DNA from: Pyrenophora tritici-repentis
Lineage: Eukaryota > Ascomycota > Dothideomycetes > Pleosporales > Pleosporaceae
Length of the DNA: 64,000 bases
Direction of reading: 5' to 3'
Assembly (NCBI RefSeq): GCF_003171515.1
Contig: NC_089391.1
Span: 3,720,001-3,784,000 of the forward strand
Every line of letters starts with the position of its first letter. Within the stretch, counting starts at the first letter, position 1. Below the pieces are notes generated by a model. It had not been told where the DNA came from. It saw only the letters and a list, made by a program, of their open reading frames with translations, and made no database searches. Below, piece by piece: positions 4,611 to 54,590 of the stretch. Made by a program: the position numbers and the translations under genes.

Positions 4611-4999
4611 GATGGATGATACATAAAGGGATAGAGTGACTTTGGTTGGAGAAAGGTGATGTACTTGACGGAAACCGCATTAGACATGACTGTATTGGTG
4701 CTGAATTCTATATACACCACCTTTTGTGGATGGGCTGGCCTGTTCAGCATCTGGGAGGGTGTTGAGAAGTCAGGTTTGCGACAGAGTATTCACAAAAAGT
4801 GTCCTGCAATGAACAGTCTGACTGCTTGCTCCATGGCGCCTGCTCCCGGCAGTTTGTCAAACCCTGAACCAACTGCGTCATAGTGATGCTTGATGTAGCG
4901 CTCGCGGCGTGTTGTGTTATTTACCCTTAGACCTGGGCGCTTTTGGGCCTCAGGCCTTTCGTCGGCTGTGTACCTTGTTGTGCGCATCCTCCAATGATC
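4611..4999. other. Convergent intergenic region
   Basis: About 390 bp between the 3' ends of the homocysteine methyltransferase and MED11. Both 3' untranslated regions must lie here; no other feature is seen. Confidence 0.5.
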
Positions 5000-5608
5000 T
5001 CATCCGTCCACTACCATGTCCTCAGTAGCCGAAGCCTCCCGGGTCCGTTTCTGTAATTCCTCCAGTATTAACTTGGCCCGATCCAAGACGTCCTCAGCAC
5101 CGACCTGTCCTGAGCTCGCTCTCGCGTTCAGTACCCCAACATCAAACTCACCATAGCCTCCATTCTTCACATCCTTTTCCGGATCTACGACCTCTTCTTC
5201 ACGCTTGTCTTTCTGATTCTTGCCGACGGCAGTGAACTTTGGATGGCTCTTGGGTATGACCTTGTATCTCTCGAGAGCGTTGATTTGCTTTACCAGTTCA
5301 CTTCGTATCAATTCGCAGGACATTCCACAAAATATAGCGTTCAAGCGAAAGGCTTCTTTGCGTGCATCGAGGGTTCCGGGTTGACATTGCATGGCATCGT
5401 TCTGGAACGGGATAGGGTCGTTGGTGAGTTGGGACAGTGCGGTCGCAAAGTACTTTAGTAGTTTGGGGATTTGGTGGTTGATCTCGTTGAGGGTGTCGAT
5501 ATGTTCGGCGGCGACTTCGCGGTACGTCTTTGGCTCGTCGGACCTCTTCTCTGGAGCAGCGGTACCCTCAGATTGTTGCTGCTCGATTTGGGTTGCGTCG
5601 GTGGACAT
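5000..5608 (-). CDS. MED11: Mediator complex subunit 11
   Basis: Single-exon frame; the ATG at 5608 (MSTDATQIEQ) is chosen over one 12 codons upstream, giving 202 residues. The core AAEHIDTLNEINHQIPKLL followed by an Ala/Leu-rich helix and, after a short loop, a second helical region (EAFRLNAIFCGMSCELIRSEL) matches fungal Med11, a helical subunit of the Mediator head module that pairs with Med22 and contacts TFIIH. The tail is low-complexity and charged. Acts in the nucleus in RNA polymerase II initiation. Assignment rests on the helix pattern and size; moderately sure. Confidence 0.75.
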   Translation of the reverse strand: MSTDATQIEQQQSEGTAAPEKRSDEPKTYREVAAEHIDTLNEINHQIPKLLKYFATALSQLTNDPIPFQNDAMQCQPGTLDARKEAFRLNAIFCGMSCELIRSELVKQINALERYKVIPKSHPKFTAVGKNQKDKREEEVVDPEKDVKNGGYGEFDVGVLNARASSGQVGAEDVLDRAKLILEELQKRTREASATEDMVVDG

Positions 5609-6079
5609 GGTGGGGTGTTTGGGTATGGGGGATATGAGCGACAAACGGAATTGGAATTTGATTCAATGGCAAATGGGCATAGGAGTGGTATATAAGACCC
5701 TGCGACAATAGCGCAATTATAAGAAAGTTACGCGACAAAGGTTCGACTCCACCTCTTGCAACGATCAAGCAAGGGCTGGGAAAGCTTGAGCTCCGTACGT
5801 AGGCGCACCGCCACATCTTGGCGGGCCGCGCGATTGAGGCCTCACCTCCGACCTCCACTCCGCAACACCGCAAGCCTCGTGCATGACCTCGGACGCGACC
5901 TACCTGTTCATACCTATTATTCACGTGTCGCGAGACTCTAAATACCACGTACGACTTATAATCAATCATCCAAGTATAGATTCGGCCCTCCATGGGCATT
6001 GCGACCGCCCGGTAACCGTAAGACGTGAAGGAACAGCTCCGCGGCTGCATTATAGAAGAAGGGAAAGAGCTTCATCGCA
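5609..6079. promoter_or_regulatory. Bidirectional promoter region, MED11 / TAF5
   Basis: The two start codons face away from each other with 471 bp between them, so both promoters must sit here. No clear TATA box is seen on either side. A GGTTCGACTCC string near 5738 resembles a tRNA T-arm but has no matching arms. Confidence 0.5.
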
Positions 6080-8679
6080 ATGTCGGGGCCCCCGCAAGGG
6101 CCCGGGCCTGTGAGGGCCATGAGCGTAGGGAATGGTCCGCCCAGTGCTGGCTTACCACCACACAGCGCGATGCCTCCGCAAGGCGGTCCACCACCACCAG
6201 GTTCTTCTGGACCGCAATCGCAGCAGAATTTGAACCAAATAGTAGGTGGACATCTCTCATATACTTCTTCCTTTTGTTGTCAGTTTGGCTGCACCCGCGC
6301 TTGTGTAAACCTGAGTACTGTGCGTTGTCTCAGCGGATTATATTGGTACAAACGCCAGATTTTGTTTGCCATTCACCTCCATCTTTCACTGCCCGGGTAA
6401 AGCCCCGGAGCCCTTAGCCTTGGATGCCCCGCCTGGCCTTGGGGTCACTCTTATAAATTGTCATAATTTTGGGCTCAACCTGCTCGCATACAGCAACTGC
6501 TCACAAATCTGCGCGCTCTTCACTACATATCAGCGGCAGCGCGTCCGGACAGCTGAACACGAGTCAATTGAGCGGACAGGCTTTGCTAACCAATATGCAG
6601 GTACTTGAATATCTCTCCAAGAAGGGCTATGTCCGCACCGAAGCGATGCTCCGCAAGGAGTCCGAACCGCAAACCAACGGTCAGCCTCTGACAGCGCAGA
6701 GTACCGAAGCTGGCGGCGCGAAGTACACGAAGGCGTTTGAGCTTCTGCGCAAATACACCGAGGACAATTTGGACTTGTACAGGCCGGAGCTACGTAAGCT
6801 ACTATGGCCTGTCTTCGTCTACTCGTTCTTGGACTTGGTTCGCGACTTCTACACAAAGGATGCAGAGACGTTCTTTACGGCCTATCACGGCTTGTTCGAG
6901 CGGGACCACGACGAGGACGTCAAGACACTTCGTCAGGTGCGGCTACAAGCTCACTTACAGGAGAGTCGCATAGCGAAGCTGTACCTCGACAACAAGTATC
7001 GTATAACGCTGACAACTATGCCATTCTTTAACCTAGTTCAATTCCTTGAATCCAAGCACTTTGACGGAGGTTCGACAATCATTGACGTCATTCGGGAGCA
7101 CCTGAACATCGTCACAGTTGACCGAACTGCAACTGCGGAGAAAAGCATCGCAGCCATTCTTGCTAGCGGACATGGCGAAGACGAGCTTCCGGCAGAAGAC
7201 GAAGGCATTCCAGGCCACGCTCCCGGTCATCCGCTCACCACGCGCCACGATCCTGACGCCGACGCAGCGCGCATTAGGCTGCAATTGGGGGCATACCCAC
7301 AAGAGCAAGAGCTACAAGACGACGTTCGAGCTGCTCTGCAGGACGAGGACGCTAAGTCCGCGCCAAGACCAGGTCAGCTGAGTTTGGTAGAGGAATTTGA
7401 GCAACGTATTAAACGTGAGCCCACAGAGGACGGTCCGTCGCGTGAGTTTGTTCCTCTGCCACCCTCGCTTGCTCGCGACGTCTCCATGGAAGTTCAAAAG
7501 ATCATTGAACACCGTGATCGCTACAAGATGGAAGGCAGAACTGGCGGTGTTGGTCCCGCCGTCAGCGTTACCATGTACACCTTTCACAACACGTACGACA
7601 GGTAAGAGCTCACTTTGTATCACTTCCACGCCCATGGCTAACATTGCGATAGCATCAACTGCATAGACTTTTCAGGCGACAATCAGCTTGTAGCTGCTGG
7701 TATGAATGAGTCTTACATTCGTGTTTGGTCCATGGACGGCAGTCCTCTGACCTCCCCCAACGACACTGCCAACACCCAACCTTCATCTTCTCGGCGCTTA
7801 GTCGGTCACTCTGGTCCTGTAACTGCAGTCGCATTCTCTCCGTCGACTGCAAACCCTGATCCCAACGGACCTCCGACCAACTCGGAATGTCTGCTGTCCT
7901 GCTCGGAAGATAAGACTGTCCGACTATGGTCACTGGACACATACACTTGTCTTGTCGCCTACCGCGGCCATGATAATCCGGTATGGGACGTTCAGTGGGG
8001 ACCCTATGGGCATTACTTCCTCACTGGCTCGAACGACCGCACTGCACGTCTTTGGTCAACCGATCATATTGAGCCTCTGCGCATCTACGTCGGCCATGAC
8101 AATGACGTCGATTGTGTCACTTTCCATCCAAACAACCTCTACATCTTCACAGGCTCTTGCGACCGCACAGTACGCATGTGGCATATTGCCGGTGGCAACT
8201 GTCTGCGCCTGTTCACCGGTCACACTGGCAATGTCACAGCCATATCATGTTCTCCCGACGGTAAGACACTTGCGTCCGCCGACGATGCGGGCAACATCAT
8301 ACTGTGGACACTCGACACTGGCAGACGGAAGAAGCGCATGCGTGGACACGGCAAGGGTGGTATCTGGTCGCTTTCCTGGAGCGTCGAGTCCAGTGTCCTA
8401 GTCTCTGCTGGAGCGGACAAGACAGTACGCGTTTGGGATGTGCTGCAGGAGCCCAGCGAGAAGGCTACTGATGGTGTGGCTGCGAAGGCGGATGGTGCCA
8501 TGACCACCAAAGGTGCAAGCGGAACGACGGTGACAGGAAAGAAGACCAGTAAGGAGACTGGTGTCTCGGCAGATCAGATCAGTGTGTTCCCAACAAAGGA
8601 GAGCCCCGTGTACAAGGTGCAGTTCACTCGAATGAACTTGGTCCTTGCTGGTGGTGCATATCTCCCGACTCGGCCTTAG
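6080..8679 (+). CDS. TAF5: TFIID subunit TAF5 (WD40 repeat)
   Basis: Three exons: 6080-6241, 6601-7601, 7653-8679; 729 residues. Intron 1 is unusually long (359 bp) but ends in CTAAC...CAG and joins NLNQI to VLEYLSKKGY, the normal TAF5 LisH start; intron 2 is 51 bp. Residues 1-50 are Pro/Gly/Gln-rich. A LisH motif (about 55-80) and the helical TAF5 N-terminal domain (about 100-230, AFELLRKYTEDNLDLYRPEL) follow, then an acidic linker and a WD40 propeller from about 390 (RGHDNPVWDVQWGP, GSNDRTARLWS, GSCDRTVRMWH, SAGADKTVRVWD). It scaffolds TFIID and, in many fungi, SAGA. A Lys/Ser/Thr-rich insertion sits before the last blade. Confidence 0.93.
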
Positions 8680-50703: not shown

Positions 50704-50711
50704 AGTACTCC
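50704..50711. repeat. Left target-site duplication of the hAT element
   Basis: AGTACTCC, repeated exactly at 53783-53790 on the other side of the element. Confidence 0.9.
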
Positions 50712-50834
50712 CAGTGATCGGAATGGTCTGGTCTGACTTGGTCTTGGTCTGGTCTAGACCGCCAAGACTTGGTCTGGTCTGGCGATTTTTTGAGACCGTG
50801 GTCGGACCGGTCTAGATGATCGGACCGGTCCGGC

Positions 50835-50843
50835 TATAAATAG
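50835..50843 (+). promoter_or_regulatory. TATA box of the transposase gene
   Basis: TATAAATAG, 131 bp upstream of the transposase start and just inside the subterminal repeats. Confidence 0.6.
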
Positions 50844-51700
50844 GTCCACGTGACTAGATCTTAGACTAATCTAGCCAGAAAATTTAGCACAATATGAGTC
50901 ATTAAGATCAAGGTAAGTCTTCTACTTACATAGAACAATCAAGTCCTTAACAACCTACTTATATACTATTGTTATGGAGCCTTCAACACCAACCTCACCG
51001 TCCCCATCGAATATTATAAGACTAGATTTAACGTCTCTTACTCCATCTCCTATCCCCACGTCATCACCCACCCCTATACTATCACCCACTCCTATTCAAT
51101 ATCACGAATCTCCAGATGAGTTCGTGCAGGGCGGTATCACGTACGTGAAACGTGCAATAATTGCAAGGAAGGATTTCCGTCAAGGTACATCACACATCTG
51201 GAAGTACGGACTCCAATACATTCGAGATAGCGATAAGAAAGAGGTGTATTACTGCCATGAGTGCAGGGTTGGGAAGAGCAAGCAAGAGTTGTTTGTCATC
51301 AATGGCACTTCTAGGATCCGGAATCACCTGGAACAGAAGCACCAGATTGATCCCCAGAGTGGCATCAAGCGAAAGGGTTCTGTACGGAAGTCTATAATCG
51401 ACCAGCAAAAGGATGGGGCTGCTTCCAGCATCTTTTTCTGGAAGGAGTCAGTAGAGAAGTTTAAAGAGCTTCTAATTCGTTGGATTGTGTACTGCCATAT
51501 CGCCTTCTTTCAATTAGAGAACCAGTACTTTCGTGAACTACTCCTCTTTTTAAATCCGGCACTACTCAACCACCTCCCGAAGGCTGCGAAGACTATCCGA
51601 AGCTGGGTAATGAATGCATTCATATCGAAGAAGCAACAGCTTAGGGAGGACCTACACCATTCACGGAGTAGGATCTCTATCTCCTTTGATCTCTGGACTT

Positions 51701-51862
51701 TAGACTCCGCAACAATCAATTCAATCCGGTCACTCTCCTAGACCCACTTACCTATCTAGGTAGGGCTTAAACTCCTATAGGTAACTACTAGGCTTAAAGC
51801 GGTAATCAATCAATCCAATCTGAACCTTCTAGGACCCACTTAATTGATTGTTGCGGACTGTG
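51701..51862 (+). mobile_element. Nested 162-bp hAT-like MITE, copy 1
   Basis: Begins TAGACTCCGCAACAATCAAT and ends ATTGATTGTTGCGGACTGTG; the ends are inverted repeats over CCGCAACAATCAATT. Flanked by an exact 8-bp duplication CTGGACTT (51693-51700 and 51863-51870) within the codons for FDLWTS of the transposase. No coding capacity. Its ends differ from those of the host hAT element, so it was probably moved by another hAT transposase. Confidence 0.93.
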
Positions 51863-53186
51863 CTGGACTTCACCAAACCCTTACGCTATCCTAGGCGTCG
51901 TCGCTATGTGGATTGATACTACCGGCATGCGACGTGTTACCGCTTTAGGTATGCGACGTATATACGGCGAACATACTGGAGAGAATCTTGGATCGGTGGT
52001 CCTTGAATTGCTGGAAGAATACGACATTAGCGGAGATCAGATTGGATACTTTATGCTGGATAATGCCTCGGCAAATGATACCGCTGTTGAGTTTATACTC
52101 AAGGATCTCTGCCCATGGATGAAGTCAAAACAACGTCGTCATCGCCGGCTGCGTTGCTTGGGCCATGTCATCAACCTCTGTTGCCAGGCGTTCCTTATGG
52201 GGCGAAACTGTGAGAAGTATCTTGCGAAGCTGGAGAAGCATCATCAACGTGGCGACTATACGAAGGTGGAAGAGCTCTGGAAGAAGTTCGGATGTTTGGG
52301 TCGTCTTCACAACCTGGTGCGATACATCAGGCTTACTCCACAACGGCGTGAGGAGTTTGCTACAATTATTATCGGCGGAGATCTTTCGCAATTCGACGGG
52401 CTTGAGCTTATCCAGAACAACTCGACCCGCTGGAACTCATGGTTTTATTCGATTACACGTGCATTAAATGTTCGAGAACGTTTAGAGCTCTTCTCGGCTC
52501 GTCATGTACCTGGAAAGGGCTCCGTAGGGATCGCGAACTTTAAGCTTGATGGACAGCACTGGTTTGAGCTTGAAAAGATTGAACTCGCTCTCAAAGACTT
52601 CTATGCTGCAACTTTGCTTTCTGAAGGTAAGAAGACGTCACTTGCGGACTGGTTTTCAACTTTGGACTGCCTTCTCCGGGAGATAAGCGAGACGAAGGAT
52701 CACTACCACGACATCCACACTGAGGACGATAACAACTTTACATGGAAGTACCTTCAAGGCTGCGCTGATGCTGCTTGGTTAAAGTGCGTTGAGTACTATA
52801 ACAATCAGCAGCTGAATTGGCAAAATCGATTCCCTGAAGATACTGACCTTCCACCGGCATATTATGCGGCTCAAATCCTTGATCCATATCGCAAGTGGGG
52901 ATGGTTCAGGCAAGAGTGGGTTCTTCATGGCGACGAAGAGAAGAAGAGGTGGTTTGAAAACGCACAATTAGCGGTGAAGCATCTCTGGGAGACAGAGTAT
53001 AAGGGAAGGTACCCTGTCGAGATGCTGCCACCACCAGCCAGGAAGGAGAGAGATCCTGACCCAGCATTTGATCGCCAGCGGGAACATAAGCGCATTCGAA
53101 TAGACGCTCCAGTTTCTACAACTGATTTGTATGAACAATACATCTCTACTGACCGGCTTCATAACGAAGAGGCAGGTTGCAATGAG

Positions 53187-53348
53187 CACAGTCCGCAACA
53201 ATCAATTAAGTGGGTCCTAGAAGGTTCAGATTGGATTGATTGATTACCGCTTTAAGCCTAGTAGTTACCTATAGGAGTTTAAGCCCTACCTAGATAGGTA
53301 AGTGGGTCTAGGAGAGTGACCGGATTGAATTGATTGTTGCGGAGTCTA
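53187..53348 (-). mobile_element. Nested 162-bp hAT-like MITE, copy 2 (opposite orientation)
   Basis: The reverse complement reads the same as copy 1 over all 162 bp in my base-by-base comparison. Flanked by an exact 8-bp duplication GCAATGAG (53179-53186 and 53349-53356). Without the insertion the transposase frame continues from EEAGCNE into AIAYWLSRYDSQ. Confidence 0.93.
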
Positions 53349-53782
53349 GCAATGAGGCTATTGCGTACTGGCTATCTCGCTACGACTCCCAACGAGATCT
53401 CGCTCGCTTCGCTCTAGACATGTTTGCGATCTCGCCTATGTCGGATGAATGCGAACGTCTTTTTAGTAGCGCGAAGCTTACTATCGTCGATCGCCGTGGT
53501 AGGCTGAAGGCAGATATTATAGAAGCGTGCGAGTGTCTCCGGGCCTGGTATGGAAAGCCCCAAGCTGAGGGGAACAGCGATATCGAGGATAGTGAGAACG
53601 AAGACGACTAGATTGACAGTCAGTAGTAAAACACATTTCCTCGGCTTCCTTCTTTGCTTCAGCCTCATTCTTGGCGGTCTTGTTGGTCGGACCGGTCTGG
53701 TCGGACCGGTCCTTATGTAAGCACCTGGTCTGGTCTGGTCTGTACCCTCAGACCAGACCAGACCAGACCATTCCGATCACTG

Positions 53783-54590
53783 AGTACTCCTGGCCCTGCA
53801 AACAGAGACCACCTACTTTCTGCACTTTTCATTTGGCTTTCCCGTCGTCCCATCCACGACACTCAATCAGGGCATGGTCTGGACCACACCTGCGCGCCTG
53901 AGCCGACCAAATTTGATGCCTATGATCACAGGTTTGATCATATCGTGATCTCATGCCACCCACTCTATCTCAACCCGTAAACGAGATATTTTTAAACCAC
54001 AACAATCAAGATTTCCCACCCACTCGAGTGTGTGGTAGTCAATGCATCCCCTGCACCTATGCTCGTCCAAACTCTAAAGGACGTTAGAACCAGCAAACTA
54101 GACAAGTTCACAACACAGACCGTGGCTCCACAACTGTGGTAATACTTATGCCAATGTAATCATGATGCTGGACGATGGGATCATGTGCACCCGGGACGGC
54201 ATCACTGATATTCACCAATTGATGTCATGGAATTTTCTGTGCTGACCACGAATAGACTCTTGACATCAATCGATCTGATGATTGAACTTTCGTGAGATTT
54301 CCACGTTGCGATTTGGGTGGTTTGATCAGTGGACGAAACAACGCGTTCGTAACATCTAGATCCATCTGACGTACGTGGCTGGCCTGTTCCATAATGTTTC
54401 CCATGTCGTATACACAAAGACCAAAGTAGTTTTACAACTCCAACGTCATCAAAAACAGCAGGAAATATGTCGGTAGAATTCATGTCATGAAAAGCACACA
54501 AACTCCCACGCATGCATGCTAGCGTCATTCCATATGATACACGTTATGCTACACCTATTCAGCCATGATTTCTCCCTCTCTCCATTGTTT
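53783..54590. other. Right target-site duplication and gene-free flank
   Basis: Begins with the AGTACTCC duplicate. The remaining 800 bp show no gene; the right part is the mL49 3' flank. Confidence 0.5.

Follow-up and report, generated by a model that had tools for sequence, protein, structure and literature searches.

Short, gene-less transposable elements that are amplified by full-length relatives and occur as near-identical copies are known from plants, as in mPing/Ping and Ac/Ds. mPing belongs to PIF/Harbinger and makes 3-bp duplications, and Ds is a hAT element, but of plants. Terminal inverted repeats in the hAT superfamily are short and begin with C/TAG, and the usual form of the hAT target is nTnnnnAn. 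Pyrenophora tritici-repentis, the species studied here, is the cause of wheat tan spot.

As far as the accessible part of the report on its reference isolate goes, MITEs make up about 1% of the repetitive sequence and most of them belong to one highly conserved family with >200 members; the same part describes repeats that were amplified recently, a hAT element whose copies are nearly identical, and RIP that, if it occurs at all, is inefficient (Manning 2013, PMC3538342). For isolate M4, the accessible part of a later report gives few repeat families with signs of RIP (Moolhuijzen 2018, PMC5913888).

We analysed a window of 64,000 nucleotides of P. tritici-repentis (assembly GCF_003171515.1, contig NC_089391.1, positions 3,720,001 to 3,784,000), in which a 162-bp MITE lies twice within one hAT element, the host. 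Like mPing and Ds, this MITE is short, gene-less and present as near-identical copies, with a full-length relative that is only a candidate here; unlike mPing, it is of hAT type and shows 8-bp duplications. Another hAT-type element, ToxhAT, is present in the same species; in the accessible parts of its descriptions it differs in its length of 14 kb, its 74-bp ends, its cargo of genes and in that no target duplication was found for it (McDonald 2019, PMC6737239; Gourlie 2022, PMC9594970).

The MITE family of Manning 2013 (PMC3538342) resembles the 162-bp family in species, high conservation, high copy number and genome-wide distribution. This likeness is one of descriptions, which in the accessible part of that paper come without sequence, length, ends, duplication or partner, and the published family could be the 162-bp family or its 128-bp relative (223 copies). 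Among the matches listed from the open-licence literature, no name for the 162-bp family was found and only Manning 2013 was judged directly relevant to a MITE family of P. tritici-repentis, while a text search of the same literature for a 15-base piece of the MITE end gave no match. Within their accessible parts, the word MITE is absent from the main texts of Moolhuijzen 2018 (PMC5913888) and Gourlie 2022 (PMC9594970). That the repeats of this species are recent and include an abundant MITE was known before; what is added here is the exact family with its copy number, a probable partner and the nested order of insertions.

Two 162-bp inserts in a host hAT element

The first-pass annotation, made from the letters of the window, had claimed that the same 162-bp element occurs twice, in opposite orientation, within one hAT transposase frame, and that each copy has its own perfect 8-bp target duplication. 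Both claims are borne out at the positions given in Table 1. The two copies do not differ at any letter, copy 2 being the exact reverse complement of copy 1, the inverted arms of the window that span them are 164 nt long with 100% identity, and both duplications were read directly. The unit shows the features of a MITE: it is short, has inverted ends, is present in uniform copies throughout the genome and has no long reading frame, its length alone leaving room for at most 54 codons. It contains a 16-base perfect inner inverted repeat and, as a single strand, folds better than 200 of 200 shuffles (z -4.76). Its left end, TAGAC, fits the C/TAG consensus of hAT ends, whereas its right end, CACAG, does not.

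Table 1. Features of the host hAT element in the window and insertion sites of the 158-bp MITE in other host copies
Feature	Position	Strand	Basis
Host hAT element	50712..53782	+	inverted ends, own 8-bp duplication, two inner sites with 98 exact-flank matches each
Host inverted ends CAGTGATCGGAATGGTCTGG	50712-50744 / 53750-53782		33 nt, 91% complementary
Host's own 8-bp duplication AGTACTCC	50704-50711 and 53783-53790		
Host hAT transposase reading frame, interrupted twice	50974..53611	+	window ORFs 50974-51741, 51906-53243, 53330-53611
162-bp MITE copy 1, ends TAGACTCCGCAACAATCAATT ... AATTGATTGTTGCGGACTGTG	51701..51862	+	434 exact genome copies
162-bp MITE copy 2	53187..53348	-	exact reverse complement of copy 1
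Target duplication CTGGACTT, left of copy 1	51693..51700	.	direct reading
Target duplication CTGGACTT, right of copy 1	51863..51870	.	direct reading
Target duplication GCAATGAG, left of copy 2	53179..53186	.	direct reading
Target duplication GCAATGAG, right of copy 2	53349..53356	.	direct reading
158-bp MITE sites	window-equivalent 52190-52198		L029, L034, L040 read; L039, L044, L048 by length
158-bp MITE site in L036, L043	window-equivalent 52261-52268		

Once both inserts and their duplicates are subtracted, the host is 2731 bp long, and the C-terminal ORF piece of its frame matches Pfam Dimer_Tnp_hAT (E 5.7e-8). Its interrupted frame extends over 2638 bases; removal of two inserts of 162 bases and two duplicates of 8 bases leaves 2298 bases, that is 765 codons and a stop, in agreement with the frame of about 765 codons that had been proposed from the window. 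Natural copies of the host support the same restoration. Among 20 copies that lack these inserts, 17 are open from the same ATG across both empty sites for 742 codons, a figure that runs to the end of the fetched stretch, about 70 bases before the stop; the other three stop earlier, after 378 (L016), 700 (L021) and 362 codons (L029). From 101 candidates, 40 copies were scored, all at 100% over the first 989 bp of the element, and the 20 were the first of these, so that young copies are favoured in this sample. Among 17 further copies, selected for extra sequence or an insert, 16 show the start and an early stop, and L032 likewise stops early, at codon 236. Both ends were found in 16 host copies: ten have matching 8-bp duplications and six do not (L034, L036, L037, L038, L042 and L043), and some host copies are therefore rearranged.

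Genome-wide distribution of the 162-bp family

A genome-wide count of the unit and a comparison of the divergence of its copies had been suggested together with the first-pass annotation, and both were carried out. The exact 162-mer occurs 434 times in the 40.9-Mb, 41-contig assembly (the two strands contributing 211 and 223), against 0 occurrences in the same 40.9 Mb for a control consisting of the 162-mer pattern read backwards, which excludes chance. When up to 3 mismatches were allowed, 442 copies were found, eight of which differ by one to three bases, and the mean divergence among the 442 is 0.00011 to 0.00034 changes per base. The central 40-mer, also with up to 3 mismatches, occurs 450 times, a count that does not capture copies with indels in that part or with a divergence above about 7%; compared with the 442 full-length copies, this indicates few shortened ones. 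A very recent and uniform burst is the most probable reading, in which a single source sequence would have given rise to the MITE copies at about 450 places. From this uniformity we infer that the family may be active, and movement may be continuing.

The sequence around the exact element was available for 69 occurrences in fetched DNA, which represent 63 distinct contexts and are a non-random sample of the 434, with 39 contexts taken in list order from contig 1 and seven in the host hAT family. The 8-bp duplication is perfect in 57 contexts, has one mismatch in two and 3-6 mismatches in four. These data bear on a reading in which the copies are older than they look and have been kept identical by gene conversion. 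Identity within one genome cannot by itself separate conversion from a burst. Nevertheless, 434 of the 442 dispersed copies are exact and most contexts keep their own perfect duplication, so that conversion would have to stop exactly at the ends of the element; furthermore, the long hAT families beside the MITEs are also near identical, in line with a general recent burst. We therefore regard conversion as very unlikely and retain the recent burst.

Any preference of the 162-bp MITE for a target motif is at most weak in the 57 sites with a perfect duplication. The form nTnnnnAn fits nine of them, against 3.6 expected with equal base use (binomial P 0.009), and the first target base is C or G in 45. 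The spacing of copies was studied in the first 100 of the 434 listed ones (59 on contig 1 and 41 on contig 2). Seven neighbouring pairs lie within 2 kb, compared with a mean of 1.3 for uniform positions (0 of 2000 trials had as many) and of 3.7 for positions jittered up to 20 kb (125 of 2000). At limits of 400 and 1000 bases the numbers of pairs are 2 and 3, reached in 59 and 53 of 2000 uniform and in 365 and 554 of 2000 jittered trials. Local hopping is not established by these counts, and the clustering may be regional.

Empty sites and order of the insertions

Each of the two insertion sites was searched with one pattern fitting both its empty and its filled state. Both patterns gave 98 host matches, which have exact flanks only and do not all pair up between the sites. 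Site 1 (51693-51700) is filled in two of the 98 matches and empty in 96, and site 2 (53179-53186) is filled in the window copy and empty in the other 97. The first-pass annotation had reasoned that, if all hAT copies carried both inserts at the same place, these would be old and amplified with their host; the empty sites show the opposite.

Such a reading, with both inserts old and their identity due to copying of the host, draws on the site-1 insert, which is common to two host copies, and on another 162-bp insert common to three (L040, L044 and L048). It is refuted as the main explanation and barely credible in that role, given how often both sites are empty; in addition, just seven of the 63 MITE contexts are in the host family, even though host copies were fetched on purpose, and 57 of the 63 have a perfect duplication. 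It is valid only for shared inserts such as the one at site 1.

The second host copy with a filled site 1 is L031 (contig 1, near 164.5 kb), in which site 2 is empty and the host duplication is CTTGGAAC instead of AGTACTCC. The site-1 insertion therefore came first and travelled with its host to a new place; the hit at site 2 followed, in the window copy. The two hits had been proposed to be independent and very recent, and this holds with the refinement that they differ in age. Since a host with a broken frame should be unable to produce a full transposase itself, the broken copies were presumably mobilised by the transposase of intact ones. The same pattern is seen in L040, L044 and L048, which have their common 162-bp MITE at one place within three different host duplications; they also have an insert of 157-158 bp at another place, read in L040 as the 158-bp MITE. 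Altogether, seven distinct 162-bp MITE insertions were read in the host family, two of them in L032, which is a second doubly hit host copy with the MITE duplications TCTCTATC and GCCACCAC.

A candidate partner of 3195 bp

The host hAT was rejected as the MITE's own partner, as its ends (CAGTGATCGGAATGG) do not match those of the MITE. A pattern consisting of the MITE end followed by a different next base led to L009/L030, a decayed hAT element with the end CAGACTCCGCAACAATCAATT. Directly beside the decayed hAT, L030 shows at about 4650-6400 open frames that by eye resemble a Fot1/pogo-type transposase. Used as query, the L030 transposase fragment brought up related hAT genes across the whole genome, with 610 candidates of which 103 were scored as matches. 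An open frame of 843-844 codons, with 75-76% identity, is present in 24 of the 103 scored rows; in L052 it gives 837 residues from the first methionine, and the encoded transposase matches Dimer_Tnp_hAT (E 6.9e-18). Ten of 14 fetched copies of this family show its ends (CAGACTCCGCAACAATCAATCC or one variant / CAGACTCCGCAACAATCAAATC) together with an 8-bp duplication, and the remaining four have no such structure within the fetched stretch. Seven of the ten are 3195 bp long and the others 3194, 3193 and 3159 bp. In pairwise comparisons of the seven 3195-bp copies, the differences amount to 0-3 bases in 15 of 21 pairs and to 16-18 in the other six, all involving L063. L051 and L059, both among the ten, have the same duplication, so that a single insertion may have been copied together with the DNA around it.

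The left end of the MITE matches the 3' end of the 3195-bp element in 24 of 25 bases, and at its right end 15 of 15 inner bases match. The likeness extends inwards: about 27 bases in the inner right part of the MITE align, with small gaps, to the 5' sub-terminal region of the partner. The distance of this match from the end differs between the two elements, and 0 of 500 shuffles were as good in this, the best of ten comparisons. In the other three comparisons with the 3195-bp element 3, 6 and 62 of 500 shuffles were as good, in four with an 859-codon hAT family 106 to 241, and in two between the 162-bp and a 128-bp MITE 11 and 31. The assignment of the MITE to the hAT type, made from the window, is supported by these ends, common to an element that encodes a hAT transposase, and by the perfect 8-bp duplication in 57 of the 63 contexts. 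The outermost bases are TAGAC (left) and CACAG (right) in the MITE and CAGAC in the partner, and a single pattern, in which the CACAG form continued differently, had 0 sites in the genome. A long match between the MITE centre and the 3195-bp element was looked for and none was found; together with the differing outermost bases, this means that the MITE is not a simple deletion of present partner copies. By its sequence, it may consist of two ends of a 3195-bp-type element with another centre between them.

Two further related hAT families have many open frames, mostly of about 1000 codons (68% identity) in one and of 859 codons (62%) in the other. The 859-codon family was rejected as partner on the one copy read (L073), whose ends, CAGACTTGTCATTAAGC, differ and which shows no inner match beyond chance. 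For the family of about 1000 codons, the ends were not found in the one copy read. This family, or a relative that has become rare, for which the decayed L030 is an example, might have supplied the transposase that moves the MITE in place of the 3195-bp family. The right terminal five bases of the MITE, which differ from those of the 3195-bp family, would agree with such an origin, and L030, with the same end, also fits the left end of the MITE at 24 of 25 bases. Against it, among the families examined only the 3195-bp one combines near-identical copies, an open frame and fitting ends, and it matches the MITE inside the ends as well; another transposase therefore seems unlikely.

We consider it probable that the 162-bp unit is a recently spread non-autonomous hAT MITE that came from, or is moved by, the 3195-bp hAT family, the host hAT being only a landing site. 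The two ends of this family, which is still present with its 843-codon frame, or those of a close relative would have given rise to the MITE. The transposase of the 3195-bp family may recognise the common ends and the sub-terminal repeats of the GATTGATT type, and would excise the MITE, whose reinsertion would create an 8-bp duplication. The host in the window belongs to a different hAT family, also recently amplified, of which one copy was struck at site 1, moved with its insert, presumably on the transposase of intact copies, and was struck again at site 2 in the window.

Related MITEs and other inserts

A 128-bp MITE with ends CAGACTCCGCAACAATCAATC is present in the same genome in 223 copies within 3 mismatches, and its 8-bp duplication, GTCGAGAT, was read in L036. 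It has a terminal repeat and an 11-base inner motif in common with the 162-bp MITE; it differs in its centre, in having CAGAC at both ends and in copy number (223 against 442 within 3 mismatches). A tentative and rather doubtful idea is that the unequal ends (TAGAC/CACAG in place of CAGAC) let the 162-bp MITE out-amplify its symmetric sister in a fungus with reportedly weak RIP; the altered end may be a better substrate, and the burst may continue. A fungal MITE burst becomes readable here almost like an experiment, with one exact sequence in 434 places, and the same genome offers a candidate partner with open-frame copies and about 98 host copies as empty-site controls; the order of insertion and the movement of the host can be read from the window case. 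The rate at which a MITE spreads where RIP is weak, and whether the end sequence decides which MITE wins, become tractable questions.

In L068, the 162-bp MITE sits within a 128-bp-type MITE (duplication CAATCAAT). A further short MITE, beginning CAGAGTCCGC, is represented by four elements (L065, L066/L067, L070 and L071). Other host copies contain a different MITE of 158 bp (CAGAGATGTCAACAAGC...) with long inverted arms, at the sites given in Table 1. L036 and L043 are neighbouring inverted host copies with this MITE at the same site and its core in opposite orientation.

Three other inserts were observed in the host family. At window-equivalent 52863, L037 shows a 548-bp insert that starts with GGGGGGATGGCGCAGTGG, ends with ACATACATACATACA and has a duplication of about 14 bases; it is SINE-like by eye, and ARAGORN found no tRNA in L037. 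A 152-bp insert (GTAACGGTTTGG...CACCGTTACA) at window-equivalent 52489 was read in L035 and recognised by position and length in L041, L042 and L049. These four host copies are 98.6-99.7% identical to the window host, not 100%, and perhaps represent an older host subfamily. Finally, L038 contains a 256-bp insert (TGTAAGGGGC...GCCTGTTACA) at window-equivalent 52026, and the same host copy also has a 162-bp MITE.
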